The notes beneath the pieces were generated by a model. The model was not told the origin of the DNA. It did no database searches and was given only the letters and a program-made list of their open reading frames with translations. The translations under genes and the position numbers were made by a program. DNA of 18,938 nt from Mobilitalea sp. (GTDB lineage Bacteria; Bacillota_A; Clostridia; Lachnospirales; Lachnospiraceae): positions 1 to 18,938 of the forward strand of contig JARKQP010000292.1 of assembly GCA_029974875.1 (NCBI GenBank), written 5' to 3'. Below are positions 14,740 through 18,938 of the stretch, piece after piece (the stretch's first letter is position 1; the number at the start of each line of letters is the position of its first letter).

Positions 14740-15201
14740 ATGAAGACGGAGACGAAAGGAATTAAATTAATAGAGAAGTTTGAAGGCTGTAGTTTAAAAG
14801 CATACAGATGTCCTGCCGGAGTATGGACAATTGGAATCGGCCATACAGGAACAGTTCTCGGAAAAAAGGTTGGGGCAGGGATGAAAATAACTTATCCTCA
14901 TGCAATCAGGATACTAAATACGGATATTAAGAAATTTGAGACGTATGTGAAGCAGTACGTACAGGTACCTGTTACACAAAACCAGTTTGACGCATTGGTG
15001 TCCTTCTGCTTTAATGTAGGGCCGGCAAACCTAAAAAAATCTACCCTGCTTAAAAAACTAAATAAAAAAGATTATGCAGGAGCAGCAGCTGAATTTCCAA
15101 AATGGAATAAAGGAGATGTTGACGGAAACGGCAACCTTGTCGCGATTGCAGGATTGACGCGGCGCAGGAAGGCAGAGCAGGAATTATTTATCCAGAAATA
15201 A
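14740..15201 (+). CDS. Phage-type lysozyme (GH24, T4/P21 endolysin family)
   Basis: 153 residues; the ATG follows GAGGAGG. The N-terminus carries the GH24 catalytic pattern E-X8-(D/C)-X5-T: E15 in EKFEGCSLKAY, C24, then T30 in WTIGIGHT. The rest (NQFDALVSFCFNVGPANLKKSTL, and GLTRRRKAEQELF at the end) is standard for the family. It cleaves the glycan strand between MurNAc and GlcNAc. There is no signal peptide, so export would need a holin, and none is visible beside it. It lies between tRNA-Lys and an unknown gene, outside any normal lysis cassette, so it is a phage relic or a domesticated enzyme. Confidence 0.92.
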   Translation: MKTETKGIKLIEKFEGCSLKAYRCPAGVWTIGIGHTGTVLGKKVGAGMKITYPHAIRILNTDIKKFETYVKQYVQVPVTQNQFDALVSFCFNVGPANLKKSTLLKKLNKKDYAGAAAEFPKWNKGDVDGNGNLVAIAGLTRRRKAEQELFIQK

Positions 15202-15343: not shown

Positions 15344-15985
15344 ATGATTATAGATATTGATATAAAAATTGCAGACAGCAATGGGAAGATGCTTCAGCAC
15401 TTCGTAAAGCGGCTTGATAATATTGATTCCACAGACGACCGGTTGAGCTTCAGTCTGGATCTCGGAAAAAGCTTCGAGCATTTTTTAGCTGAGTATATGT
15501 CCTACAGCGGGCGCAGAATTCAGGAAAAACTGTTTACGGACAACAAATATCCCTTATATGGCAGATATTATCTGCCTAATGGGAGCTTTATGCCCAGTGA
15601 AGAAGTACAGTTTAATGAGGATCTCACATCCGGTGGAGCAATACAAGGGGATGAGGGACTTCCGGCTGCTAAAGAGATTCCTTTCCAGCATCAGGAGAAT
15701 ATCCTGCAGAAAGACCTTCCCACCGACAAAAAAGTAGAAAGCCGGGAAATCCAATACTTAATCCGTATTGGGAACGGGAGTATTTTCTCCGGTAAATTTC
15801 CTGTTAAACAGCTTATCGAGGTTAGGGATATGAGGGGATCCCAGGAATCGGAATCCGTAAATAGCCCGGAGGCAGAAGGTGAGGATTTAAGTTATTTGAT
15901 GCAGAAAGCCATAGAGAAATATGAAACTACTTTTTATCACATTACCCAGGATCAGGAAGCCGGGGACTTTTATAGTCCCCGGTAA
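15344..15985 (+). CDS. Hypothetical protein, 213 aa
   Basis: The ATG at 15344 has AAGGTGAG just upstream and is preferred to a TTG at 15293 with no ribosome site. The product is soluble and acidic, with no signal peptide or membrane helix. It begins MIIDIDIKIADSNGKMLQHF, has a middle rich in Glu/Gln/Asp that is probably disordered (about 85-140), a strand-rich segment IQYLIRIGNGSIFSGKFPVK, and ends in an acidic helix (LSYLMQKAIEKYETTF). I recognise no family. It follows the lysozyme gene on the same strand (142 bp) and its last 16 bases overlap the end of the convergent protease gene within a hairpin. Confidence 0.7.
   Translation: MIIDIDIKIADSNGKMLQHFVKRLDNIDSTDDRLSFSLDLGKSFEHFLAEYMSYSGRRIQEKLFTDNKYPLYGRYYLPNGSFMPSEEVQFNEDLTSGGAIQGDEGLPAAKEIPFQHQENILQKDLPTDKKVESREIQYLIRIGNGSIFSGKFPVKQLIEVRDMRGSQESESVNSPEAEGEDLSYLMQKAIEKYETTFYHITQDQEAGDFYSPR
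15960..15982. terminator. 9-bp palindrome spanning two convergent gene ends
   Basis: CCGGGGACT (15960-15968) and AGTCCCCGG (15974-15982) form a perfect GC-rich stem with a 5-nt loop. The minus-strand stop codon (15970-15972) lies in the loop and the plus-strand stop (15983-15985) directly follows the stem. No T-run, but it could slow both polymerases or mark both RNA ends. Confidence 0.55.
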
Positions 15986-16650
15986 AGCCATTGATTTTCG
16001 GCTACGAATAAATCGGCAGCCTGTGTGTCATAAATATTTTCTTCATTTAATATGGGCTTATCACATTTATTGCAGATGGGTTTATTAGAGTTGTATATGA
16101 TGGTATCACAATAAATACATTGGGCTTCCTTAAAAATAAATTGCCTCATATCCTGGTTATAGAAGTGCTGGTACAGCTTCCTGTCTATGTCGGTCATACC
16201 ATATGTCTTTGCACTATAAAGCCATCTTTCATAAAATTCCTTGGCATATTTGGCGCACTCAAGTGAGATGTTAAATAAGTTTGCAATCTCCCGTATGTTG
16301 GTAAGCCTGGAGAAATGCAGGGCAATGGAGGGGCATAAAATATTGCTGGAAAATAGATTTGCCTCGGTTTCATTATCCGTATTTAATTCAATATGGCCCA
16401 GCTCATGCATAAGAGAGAAACGGATCCTGCGGGGAGATTTCCTGTCGTTATAATAAATAGTGTCACCAATGGTGCAGGAATCCGGGCTAAGCTCCATACA
16501 GGCCTGGTATTTACTTTCTGACAGCTGGGAGTATTTTTTACAGGTAAAGCCTTTCTGTGTAAGGAGGTGGAAGCAGTCAAAAGGAAGCTCCGTTATGTTG
16601 CATTGCTCATAGATTAAAACGGCGGTATATTTTATTCTGTCATAATCCAT
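15970..16650 (-). CDS. ImmA/IrrE-family metallopeptidase with C-terminal Cys pairs
   Basis: 226 residues. The zinc-peptidase motif is MHELGH (H82, E83, H86), with E96 in ETEANLF as the probable third ligand, as in ImmA of ICEBs1 and IrrE. A helical region follows, then a C-terminal extension with C178-X2-C181 and C193-X2-C196, likely a zinc ribbon that many ImmA proteins lack. In the known systems ImmA cleaves the partner repressor ImmR to release the mobile element. Here the partner is the XRE gene three bases upstream on the same strand. The start follows a GAGGAA site that lies within the end of that gene, so translation is probably coupled. Confidence 0.88.
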   Translation of the reverse strand: MDYDRIKYTAVLIYEQCNITELPFDCFHLLTQKGFTCKKYSQLSESKYQACMELSPDSCTIGDTIYYNDRKSPRRIRFSLMHELGHIELNTDNETEANLFSSNILCPSIALHFSRLTNIREIANLFNISLECAKYAKEFYERWLYSAKTYGMTDIDRKLYQHFYNQDMRQFIFKEAQCIYCDTIIYNSNKPICNKCDKPILNEENIYDTQAADLFVAENQWLYRGL

Positions 16651-16653
16651 ATC

Positions 16654-16992
16654 CTATTCCTCATCATCTGATAGTATAATTTTAGCCAGTTTCATTTTTT
16701 CCTGGGGTGTTAAAGTACTTTTACCACGGGTATAAATCTTAATCATCTCATCGTATGTAGGCAGCGCTTCCGGTTTTTTATTTTCCAGTAAATCTGAATT
16801 TTTGACCCCTAACCAATTAGCAATTAATTGAACCTTATCCATACGGGGCAGCTTTTGGCCCGTGCACCAGTTCGATACCGTTGATGAGCTGACATTAATA
16901 AAATCAACCAGATCCTTCTGTGTTTTATTTCTTTCCTCTAATAACCGGGTTAAATTTTTTGAAAAAATTCTTCTTATCTCGTCTTCTGACAT
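16654..16992 (-). CDS. XRE-family repressor (ImmR/cI-like)
   Basis: 112 residues. The N-terminal helix-turn-helix domain covers about 10-68; the recognition part is TQKDLVDFINVSSSTVSNWC, followed by GQKLPRMDKVQLIANWLGV, the standard XRE form. The C-terminal tail (YDEMIKIYTRGKSTLTPQEK) is short, with no self-cleaving peptidase domain, which fits control through the adjacent ImmA-like protease. AAGGTAGG precedes the ATG by about 8 nt. It is transcribed away from a control region with repeated AGCTAAAAG half-sites that overlap both promoters, so it very likely represses itself and the rightward genes. Confidence 0.9.
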   Translation of the reverse strand: MSEDEIRRIFSKNLTRLLEERNKTQKDLVDFINVSSSTVSNWCTGQKLPRMDKVQLIANWLGVKNSDLLENKKPEALPTYDEMIKIYTRGKSTLTPQEKMKLAKIILSDDEE

Positions 16993-17399: not shown

Positions 17400-17840
17400 A
17401 TGACAGAACATGAATTAAGCCAATATAGGGCAATCCAAAAAGAGATTGAAGATCTCAGCCTGAGAATTAAAAGATTTGAGAATATGGGAACGCCTATGGT
17501 GTCCGATAGGGTGAAGGGCTCATCAAGACATTTTCCATATATAGAAAAGTATTATTATGTGTCCGGAGTTGATACGGAAGCGAATAATAAACGAAAGAAG
17601 CTTATTTTGGAATTACAGAAAAAGCGTAATGATAAAGTGGACGAGCTTCTTAAGATGGAGAATGAGATCCATGATTATATTTACACTATTCCAGATAGTG
17701 AGATTAGGCAGATATTTGTCTTCCGCTATATCGACGGCCTTTCACAGGAAGAAATAGGGGAGAAGCTACATATGGACCGGAGTGGCGTGTCAAAGAGAAT
17801 TACGAAGTATCTGGGGGTGGCGAAGGCTAGAAGCAAATAG
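17400..17840 (+). CDS. Phage sigma-70-region-4-like transcription regulator
   Basis: 146 residues; AAGGAGG lies 9 nt before the ATG. The N-terminal half is helical and charged with SDRVKGSSRHFPYIEKYYYV, a segment common in clostridial prophage regulators of the ArpU/RinA-like or DUF1492 kind. The C-terminal half is a sigma region 4-type helix-turn-helix: IRQIFVFRYIDGLSQEEIGE followed by KLHMDRSGVSKRI. Such proteins usually switch on late or packaging genes and stand just before the terminase genes. Here no terminase follows. The final codons (GCTAGAAGCAAATAG) match the 17-bp tandem repeat that continues downstream, so the stop region seems to be part of the array. Confidence 0.8.
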   Translation: MTEHELSQYRAIQKEIEDLSLRIKRFENMGTPMVSDRVKGSSRHFPYIEKYYYVSGVDTEANNKRKKLILELQKKRNDKVDELLKMENEIHDYIYTIPDSEIRQIFVFRYIDGLSQEEIGEKLHMDRSGVSKRITKYLGVAKARSK

Positions 17841-17988
17841 GCTGAAAAGGCAGAATAGGATGAAAAAGGGGAATAAGCTAAAAAGACAAATAAGCCGAGA
17901 AGGCAAATAAGATGAGAAGGCAAATAAACTAAGAAGACAAATAAACTAAGAAGACAAATAAGCTGAGAATACATTTAAGCTGGTAAGG
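17826..17988 (+). repeat. 17-18 bp tandem repeat starting in the end of the regulator gene
   Basis: Consensus about GCTGAGAAGGCAAATAA. Units: 17841-17858 and 17859-17876 (18 bp), then 17877-17893, 17894-17910, 17911-17927, 17928-17944, 17945-17961 and 17962-17978 (17 bp each), then a partial to 17988. A shortened unit, GCTAGAAGCAAATAG, is the last five codons of the preceding gene. The array has stop codons in the reading frame of that gene and no spacers. Confidence 0.9.
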
Positions 17989-18111
17989 ATCCTAAAATGA
18001 AATCCGTTGGAGAGCTGTTCGGAAATTCATTCTTGGATCCTTCTCTATTGGGTGCATATCAACCGGGGGATACAGGCAAGAACAATAATTATCGAATAAA
18101 ATCCAATTGGA

Positions 18112-18164
18112 ACACAAATCACAAAAGAACCTGCTATAATAGTAGTATGGAAAGCTATCAAAAT
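18112..18164 (+). repeat. 53-bp direct repeat, copy 1 (holds a promoter)
   Basis: Matches 18356-18408 at 51 of 53 positions; the differences are G18145/T18389 and G18154/A18398. It contains CTGCTATAAT with an extended -10 (TGC-TATAAT, 18132-18140) but no good -35. Confidence 0.95.
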
Positions 18165-18275
18165 TAACTGAATACAAATAAAGAGTTTGTTTAGGGGACT
18201 GATATAAAATGGAATTCTAAGAATTAGGAAGGTTTAAATCCTAGTGGGAGCCGTTTTGTGGCAGCCCTCTTTTCT
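18147..18275 (+). ncRNA. Candidate structured small RNA, copy 1
   Basis: Start predicted about 7 nt after TATAAT (18135-18140). AGGGGACTGATATAAAAT (18193-18210) pairs with GTTTTGTGGCAGCCCTCT (18253-18270) at 16 of 18 positions with G-U pairs. Inside, ATTAGGA (18223-18229) pairs with TCCTAGT (18239-18245). CTTTTCTTTCC follows, a loose terminator tail. The stem recurs in copy 2 with changes that mostly keep pairing. No known RNA family recognised. Confidence 0.5.
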
Positions 18276-18355
18276 TTCCATATAAAAAGGTAGCCAAGGT
18301 GGCTGCAGAGATCAAAATGAATTAAGAAATAAATTGATATCCGTATCCACCCTGC

Positions 18356-18408
18356 ACACAAATCACAAAAGAACCTGCTATAATAGTATTATGGAAAACT
18401 ATCAAAAT
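18356..18408 (+). repeat. 53-bp direct repeat, copy 2 (holds a promoter)
   Basis: Second copy, 244 bp downstream of the first, with the same extended -10 (TATAAT at 18379-18384). Confidence 0.95.
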
Positions 18409-18512
18409 CATTGATAGGCATAAAGAGCCAGCTTCAGGAGCTGCCGCAAAACAAATCTAAGGATTAGTAATTTTAGTCCTTAGGATAAAGGTTTTGTGGT
18501 GGCTTCTTCTTT
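18391..18512 (+). ncRNA. Candidate structured small RNA, copy 2
   Basis: AGGAGCTGCCGCAAAAC (18436-18452) pairs with GTTTTGTGGTGGCTTCT (18491-18507) over 17 uninterrupted pairs, four of them G-U. It encloses a second hairpin, 18457-18483 (CTAAGGATTAG with TTTAGTCCTTAG), about 11 bp. A pyrimidine-rich TCTTTCAT tail follows. Outside the promoter repeat the two copies share little primary sequence except GTTTTGTGG, but they share the fold. The stretch 18513-18788 has only a small GTGTT-ATA-AACAC palindrome (18538-18550) and a 20-codon frame at 18615 that I do not support. Confidence 0.5.
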
Positions 18513-18788
18513 CATATGGTTTGGATAAAATATGGTTGTGTTATAAACACGGGGAAACGTAATCAAGAGATAATTCGGGGTGGGCATTTGATTACAACTA
18601 GTTTGGAAGGAAATATGATCAGGCATTCAATTAGGGAATTCTCAGGTTATTTTATAAATGGCCTAAGATTTATATAAATTATCATTCCAGGTCTTTTTGC
18701 TGTCTTGCAGACGTAAAAGAACAAGGCAGACACTGTATCAGAGAAGGAACACTCGTAAACACCGTAGATATGGAAGGGAGAGATTAGT

Positions 18789-18938
18789 TTGGAGTACACG
18801 AAGCTTTTGGAAGGACAAGGGTTGTCAGAGGAGCAGATAAATGCAATTGTAAAGGCGATGAGGAAAAGCAGGATATTCATTACCCATGAGGAACACCTGG
18901 AAGTGAGATATCAGAAGATGAGGCACCAAAGAGATCTT
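18789..18938 (+). CDS. Start of a phage scaffold GP20-like protein (cut by window end)
   Basis: A TTG start follows AAGGGAGAG by about 6 nt. The 50 visible residues begin MEYTKLLEGQGLSEEQINAI and continue VKAMRKSRIFITHEEHLEVR and YQKMRHQRDL. Phage minor structural/scaffolding GP20 proteins start the same way: a short LxxxGLSxEQIxxIVKxx helix, then a hydrophobic FxPxxxxxEV patch and a long charged coil that guides capsid assembly. Only the first part is here, so the call is tentative. In phages this gene follows terminase and portal genes, which are missing. Confidence 0.4.
   Translation, partial: MEYTKLLEGQGLSEEQINAIVKAMRKSRIFITHEEHLEVRYQKMRHQRDL

Follow-up and report, generated by a model that had tools for sequence, protein, structure and literature searches.

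Two tandem promoter-leader-terminator units, putative regulated terminator gates, in the late-control region of a probable tailocin-type element of Mobilitalea sp.

In phage lambda the gene of the late regulator Q is located directly upstream of the late promoter. The lambda pR'-tR' system combines a site for this protein inside the promoter with a promoter-proximal terminator before the late operon (in part after PMC7171158 and PMC7969949). AlpA of Pseudomonas aeruginosa, once termed an activator, is described as an antiterminator in the corresponding part of PMC7969949: it binds within the promoter (alpB and PA0807 promoters), RNA polymerase bypasses a terminator located just before the first gene, and the output is lytic or phage-like. 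The late regulators RinA, Ltr and LlgA of Gram-positive phages are instead described as activators, and the word 'terminator' occurs 0 times in PMC13123087. Finally, the defective phage-like element PBSX of Bacillus subtilis has a sigma-like factor, Xpf (PMC4243946, in the section considered).

Here we compare with these systems a DNA stretch of 18,938 nt from Mobilitalea sp. (Lachnospiraceae; GenBank assembly GCA_029974875.1, contig JARKQP010000292.1), which as a whole is called the window. Near its right end, directly downstream of a late-regulator gene of the phrog_36 type, there are two tandem units, each of which is best explained as a promoter with a putative regulator site in the place of the -35, an extended -10 and a short terminated leader. 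We consider it probable that these are late-control units of a tailocin-type element, working as regulated terminator gates; for antitermination proper the likelihood falls somewhat short of even. The initial annotation of the window had noticed the pair and described it as promoter-driven structured RNAs in a phage-like region. We confirm the observation and find the same arrangement in many loci besides the window, and its interpretation shifts from structured small RNAs (sRNAs) to promoter-leader-terminator units; the region is indeed phage-like, and is better described as a late-control region of the tailocin type.

The segments 18112-18164 and 18356-18408 are identical at 51 of 53 positions and lie 244 bp apart (counted by eye), in agreement with what had been reported, and a repeat search lengthens the pair to 64 nt at 89%. 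In unit 1 (coordinates by eye) a box at 18111-18123, whose first base is A and not C, is followed by TG (18132-18133), TATAAT (18135-18140) and TAGTAT (18143-18148), with the predicted transcription start (+1) near 18147. The corresponding positions of unit 2, also by eye, are 18355-18367 for the box, 18376-18377 for TG, 18379-18384 for TATAAT and 18387-18392 for TATTAT, with the predicted +1 near 18391. In an alignment of 35 units (A2) the conserved parts are the CACACA-ATCACA box, at about -36 to -24, the extended -10 TGnTATAAT, a second TAnnnT hexamer 8 nt downstream (34/35 aligned units, by eye) and then GGAARRYTRY, while a TTGACA-like -35 was found in none of the units. Among the invariant or near-invariant columns are, in both hexamers, T, A and T at the key -10 positions, as a sigma-dependent pause of the lambda type would need; the second hexamer is a possible pause hexamer.

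The stretches 3' of both copies fold at -49.5 kcal/mol (copy 1, z -3.79) and -48.7 kcal/mol (copy 2, z -5.40), with 0/200 shuffles as stable in either case, in line with the structured transcripts of the initial annotation, whose reading of two promoters also holds. Precisely, the hairpin of unit 1 has -26.1 kcal/mol and that of unit 2 has -37.1 kcal/mol (0/20 shuffles as stable for each), and a T-rich tract follows both; the pyrimidine-rich tail of the initial annotation is thus present and is better read as a terminator U-tract. Paired changes in the stem, which had been taken as a sign of selection on structure, were evaluated on nine close-group units, namely the two of the window and seven homologous ones from the loci L001, L002 and L005; L001 and L002 being near duplicates, the nine sequences correspond to fewer independent ones. 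The 18-pair stem is 91.9% paired over these units and pairing falls to 44-63% when the partner is slid by 1-3 columns; 8/18 pairs are changed on both sides (28/500 shuffles reach 8), and the covariation score is 0.458 against a shuffled mean of 0.333 (0/500 as high). All nine units have a hairpin of -19.5 to -37.1 kcal/mol, with 0/20 shuffles as stable for each. The covariation is therefore real and points to a helix. We read this helix as the stem of an intrinsic terminator, its best reading, because it runs into a U-tract, precedes the operon and gives way to ordinary terminators elsewhere: the long hairpin with the 18-bp outer stem occurs in the closest relatives of the window, and short hairpins of the GAGCATCC/GGATGCTC type occur in L017 and L018.

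The anatomy of promoter, defined 5' end and terminator is also that of an sRNA gene, and a covarying long stem, together with a first ~18 nt of transcript alike in the nine close units, would suit free trans-acting RNAs, either regulatory sRNAs or protein decoys, as first proposed. We regard such RNAs as very improbable, because outside the close group the likeness between units is limited to the promoter and the first ~18 nt, the remainder of the transcript diverges, and a short standard terminator or none (inner units of L015 and L008) takes the place of the hairpin. Moreover, the units are linked to one position before the tail operon, for which no other promoter stands out. An anti-termination leader, the further proposal, is close to the best reading, but a likeness to put RNAs is unsupported: the stems of the HK022 type work in cis on RNA polymerase and need no phage protein, whereas those described here end in U-tracts, like terminators, and stand in for one. 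In Rfam the units match no family, either at gathering level or at E up to 10, the one exception being a mir-7131 match that lies between the units on both strands (E 0.88-0.96) and was taken as chance.

A scan of viral contigs with the regulator returned L001 and L002, in which the same pair lies between regulator and scaffold gene. A search with alignment A1, made of 33 of the 39 listed regulator proteins (that of the window included), then gave 7 loci from genomes and 16 viral ones, two of the latter being L001 and L002 again. Arrays were detected with a position matrix from 19 sites and then with R1, a DNA model from the 35 sites of A2. We found 11 tail-type loci with 2-7 tandem units between a phrog_36 regulator and the scaffold/tail operon, all on the operon strand. 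The number of units is two for the window, L001, L002, L006 and L014, three for L005 and for L017, where one of them is partial (28.7 bits), four for L016, five for both L018 and L008, and seven for L015. A single unit is present in L007 (at a contig end) and in the phage-type locus L019, and R1 had no strong match in 10/24 sources (L009-L011, L021-L027). L003, L004, L012 and L013, which lie on the same contigs as L001/L002, and L020, whose hits are those of L008, were left out of the counts. As a separate observation, ~2 kb of L016 (3023-5036) hold two transposase-like open reading frames (ORFs; IS3-like by eye), apparently splitting the first unit: half an element (12.3 bits) follows the regulator directly and the array resumes past them.

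As in lambda Q-type operons, a promoter-proximal intrinsic terminator before the late operon was found in the units of the window and in relatives: a terminator follows 22/39 units (shuffles, 173/1560) and 10/13 last units (shuffles, 78/520). Its distribution varies between arrays. In L015 only the last of the seven promoters has a terminator after it, a pattern that fits added promoter strength in a non-replicating element, whereas L018 has a terminator after each of its five promoters, which fits stacked gates. To our knowledge tailocins do not replicate their own DNA and would thus be without the gene-dosage boost of a phage.

Independent support came from the DNA model alone, run over 397 genomes with E < = 0.001. 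It matched 13 of them; G002 and G004 were already known, and a regulator gene adjoins the match in four of the other 11 (G277, G215, G019, G052). In the other seven, G053, G104, G196, G393, G011, G242 and G276, the R1 matches are weak (20-26 bits), and three regulator queries found no regulator in the ~3-kb stretches around them. In the whole genomes G001, G002 and G004 the R1 matches (3, 2 and 5, respectively) are all at the single locus described. Apart from these, G429 has a promoter-like element of 35.2 bits (L086:1509-1560), after an endolysin-like gene and before one whose product is by eye serine-protease-like, with the regulator absent from the 801 nt read around it; this is perhaps a cargo gene under the late switch.

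The element type was followed in L005 (genome G001), which has scaffold, tail-terminator, sheath, tube and XkdN genes, and in its continuation L082, with YQBQ-like, baseplate-wedge, fibre-like, holin and lysozyme genes ahead of genes of host type (RelA/SpoT, two-component system). Among the scanned ORFs of the two (15/34 listed in L082) there was no match to a terminase, portal or capsid family. This is the layout of an R-type tailocin, with an oddly retained capsid-scaffold gene. The regulator of L005 is 92% identical to that of the window, and both loci have an upstream lysozyme gene and a tRNA that scores 69.9 bits with Rfam in both (in the window, tRNA-Lys); for these reasons we infer from sequence that the window holds the late-control region of a tailocin-type element whose own tail genes lie beyond the window end. 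The genes downstream of the units are probably those of a headless contractile phage tail. The 50 aa of the scaffold gene in the window match no family alone, but its DNA aligns to the gene of L001/L002, whose product matches PF06810 (E 1.5e-24) and phrog_194, and in L001 the genes after scaffold are those of tail-terminator, sheath, tube, XkdN-like and tape-measure proteins; by analogy with L001, the scaffold gene of the window would be the first gene of the tail operon. The PF06810 homologue is the first operon gene at L001:4234-4866, L005, L006, L008 and L014-L018. It is retained without a capsid gene in the relative followed, and may have taken on a new role, e.g. in the tail or in regulation.

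The regulator is predicted to fold into a coiled-coil plus beta-hairpin part and a sigma-region-4-like domain. Such a domain is apt for the -35 position and, by analogy with sigma, for a beta-flap contact. The beta-flap region is where Q-type antiterminators act, according to the sections of PMC7171158 and PMC7969949 considered. The box of the units is at about -36 to -24, and the AlpA site lies between -35 and -10; moreover, AlpA is a predicted winged helix acting at single promoters, whereas here a sigma-region-4-like domain meets tandem units. With respect to lambda the differences are a regulator outside the Pfam Q families, the lack of a TTGACA-like -35, 2-7 tandem units and a merely proposed antitermination; with respect to RinA, Ltr and LlgA, the tandem units in tailocins. 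phrog_36 matches are also found in the B. subtilis control genome, presumably linked to Xpf. No curated NCBIfam model of the kind we take to be labelled ArpU-type was among the 15 families listed at E < = 0.01.

Between the last terminator and the scaffold gene none of the 11 tail-type loci has a sigma-A-like promoter that stands out (the observed score is reached by 21-99/100 shuffles), the scan covering sigma-A-like promoters only, so that another promoter type would be missed. Hence the simplest view is that the tail transcript begins at the units and has to get past the last terminator at least, through leakage or with a modified polymerase. Together with the conservation and position of the units and their covarying terminators, this makes the architecture well supported. 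On its mechanism we propose the following. In the resting state the transcript of a unit would be short and stop at its own hairpin. On induction, the regulator would act at the CACACA-ATCACA box through its sigma-region-4-like domain, would help RNA polymerase to start at the unit and would make it resist the terminators; transcription could then run via the leader region (18530-18766) into the scaffold and tail genes. The tandem units suggest a switch that holds the tail genes off until the regulator lets transcription pass, the copies giving either added promoter strength or gates stacked in series. Binding of the regulator to the units, its action on the terminators and the reason for the tandem copies are what this proposal would add to the architecture.

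A single-copy form of the same arrangement was looked for in prophages and phages. For this, we considered 30 phrog_36 loci from 299 genomes of the same family (Lachnospiraceae), 169 of which have a match; these are strong matches and not a random sample. A compact terminator < = 220 nt from the regulator stop codon is present in 24/30 loci (shuffles, 55/600), with a -10-like hexamer upstream of it in 23/24, and near-perfect direct repeats of period 8-12 occur in 7/30 (shuffles, 6/1500). Among described phages, the arrangement of regulator, promoter, terminator and late genes is seen in four, in which hairpins follow rinA of phi11 (L079:2455-2478, -13.2 kcal/mol, TTTTTTAA), orf61 of PVL (L080:4467-4491, -12.1), alt of TP901-1 (L081:3519-3539, -12.0, preceded by larger structures) and gp66 of A118 (L078:6752-6810, -14.7, with a weak T-tract). 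We take gp66 to be the A118 late regulator, and the frame used for the Ltr of PVL is likewise assumed, from its position. The 18-bp repeats described for the phi13 promoter P23 are visible at the 3' end of PVL orf61. In distant phages, by eye, a TATAAT-like promoter is often at or just after the regulator stop codon and is followed by a terminator-like hairpin and other genes; in some of them the box is inside the 3' end of the regulator gene, and terS-type late genes are further down in several.

Two side observations concern these loci. About 150-200 nt past the regulator stop in L024 and L026, GAACGTGTGTTC and GAACGTTTGTTC, in TTGACA-type promoters, resemble the Gram-positive LexA box, and may belong to a separate SOS-controlled gene. 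In TP901-1 the 576-nt intergenic region between alt and terS (L081:2987-3563) shows, by eye, several tRNA-T-arm-like sequences and hairpins before the terminator.

On this basis we tentatively extend the proposal to the late activators of the phrog_36/RinA/Ltr group: these could be processive antiterminators loaded at the late promoter, convergent with Q and AlpA, with the promoter-proximal terminator as their true target, and tailocins, unable to gain gene dosage through replication, would have multiplied the unit up to seven-fold. We consider this possible and give it less than an even chance.

Several results weigh against gates opened by antitermination. At E < = 0.001 the Pfam scan of the regulator returned sigma-70 region 4 and ECF families only and none of the Q families (PF06530, PF03589 and PF06323 in the part of PMC7171158 considered), and the fold search gave no PDB match at E < = 0.001. 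The T-tract of unit 2 (TCTTTCAT) is weak, and weaker than that of unit 1. A terminator is missing after 17/39 units, including 6/7 in L015 and 3/4 in L016, with the last unit of L016 among those lacking it, and all 5 in L008, where the scan covered 120 nt; a terminator does follow the last L008 unit at a greater distance, in a region where 17/20 shuffles also give a hairpin of -8 or better. In the Lachnospiraceae loci the reverse-strand control gave 17/30 and is not clean, because stems between A- and T-runs score both ways, and -10-like hexamers are frequent in shuffles (620/1500). Furthermore, a phi13 reporter that extends to 50 bp past the start site depends on Ltr (PMC13123087). In the related PVL the hairpin spans ~+26 to +50 from the predicted start; the reporter was therefore probably without an intact U-tract, its dependence on Ltr would then reflect initiation, and these data argue for activation of initiation, at least in phi13.

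The weak T-tract, several inner units and the last unit of L016 without terminators and the activation of P23 by Ltr are also what would be expected of activated late promoters with leaky terminators, in which the regulator switches initiation only, in keeping with published work on Ltr/RinA-type regulators, and the hairpins are attenuators, insulators against read-through from the early operon or stabilisers of the mRNA 5' end. We think this explanation unlikely, though less so than the sRNAs. An insulator should lie on the upstream side of the late promoter, yet in the 24 Lachnospiraceae terminators the hexamer, in all but one, comes first, and stable hairpins with T-tracts follow all nine close-group units. 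Activation may also coexist with antitermination, which is what the proposed gates would combine.

The start of the transcript allows one more explanation. The predicted +1 is the first base of ATG or GTG in nearly all array units (by eye; window, L001, L002, L005, L006, L008, L014-L018), and mostly short frames open there, with Met-Glu-x-[Cys/Tyr] in many. Leaderless leader peptides, whose translation would control the hairpin, could be read from these frames, but we hold this to be the least probable of the explanations and barely plausible: (A/G)TG is missing in L007 and in several single-copy relatives (e.g. L023, L026), frame length and later codons vary, and the second hexamer (TAnnnTGG) accounts for the same bases. 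The earlier statement that no supported ORF lies inside the pair holds in this sense, the frames existing with a start codon lost in several single-copy relatives.

The general plan of the regulated gates is known from lambda; their occurrence with Gram-positive late regulators and the tandem multiplication in tailocins were not met in our searches of the openly licensed literature. In the titles and abstracts returned we found nothing on a terminator that separates a Gram-positive late promoter from its operon, nor on tandem late promoters in tailocins, which does not imply absence from print. The papers considered describe late control of Gram-positive phages as promoter activation. A strong terminator just past the late promoter (tailocins, Lachnospiraceae prophages, phi11) makes a second, antitermination layer directly testable. 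The arrays, with 2 to 7 copies and with or without inner terminators, form a natural series that bears on whether the copies contribute strength or keep a lethal operon more tightly off.

The features of the window are collected in Table 1. At the right end the gene order is lysozyme, M78-peptidase and HTH repressor, regulator, minisatellite, the two units and the scaffold start. The minisatellite (~17846-17990), between the regulator gene and unit 1, has a 17-bp period and about 7-9 AAGACAAATAAGCTGAG-like units.

Table 1. Features at the right end of the window. The window units belong to the training set of R1, so their R1 scores are no independent evidence.
Feature	Position	Strand	Remarks
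Lysozyme gene	14740-15201		Lysis gene of the cluster
M78-peptidase gene and HTH repressor gene	15970-16992	-	
Late-regulator gene	17400-17840	+	146 aa, phrog_36; C-terminal sigma-region-4-like domain (predicted)
Unit 1 promoter element	18102-18164	+	R1 match 60.0 bits, alignment A2
Unit 1 terminator	18194-18276	+	Hairpin 18194-18268 and T-tract; best read as intrinsic terminator
Unit 2 promoter element	18346-18408	+	R1 match 64.0 bits, alignment A2
Unit 2 terminator	18436-18515	+	Hairpin 18436-18507 and T-tract TCTTTCAT; best read as intrinsic terminator
Downstream leader	18530-18605	+	Candidate second structured RNA, alignment A4
GP20-b-like RNA	18698-18766	+	Rfam, sub-gathering; before scaffold gene
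Capsid-scaffold (GP20-like) gene, start	18789-18938	+	TTG start; runs past the window end

The candidate RNA downstream of unit 2 consists of a GUGU..ACAC hairpin, GGGG and a GUAAUC..GAUUAC stem enclosing GGGGUGGGC. It was aligned from 8 loci (window, L001, L002, L005, L006, L016, L017, L018), with 12 predicted pairs, 2 of which are changed on both sides; it has no Rfam match and, by eye, was not seen in L008, L014 and L015. The last segment before the scaffold gene matches GP20-b (RF03003) with 26.9 bits, against a gathering threshold of 36.2 (E 0.0015). It resembles GP20-b RNA and lies outside the units. No match at E < = 2 was obtained in L006, L017 and L018, and none at gathering level in 10 sources. 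Similar segments are at L005:6320-6389, L014:1957-2026 and L015:3905-3975, all sub-gathering as in the window (range 26.4-33.7 bits), and are probably a divergent branch of the family in tailocins.
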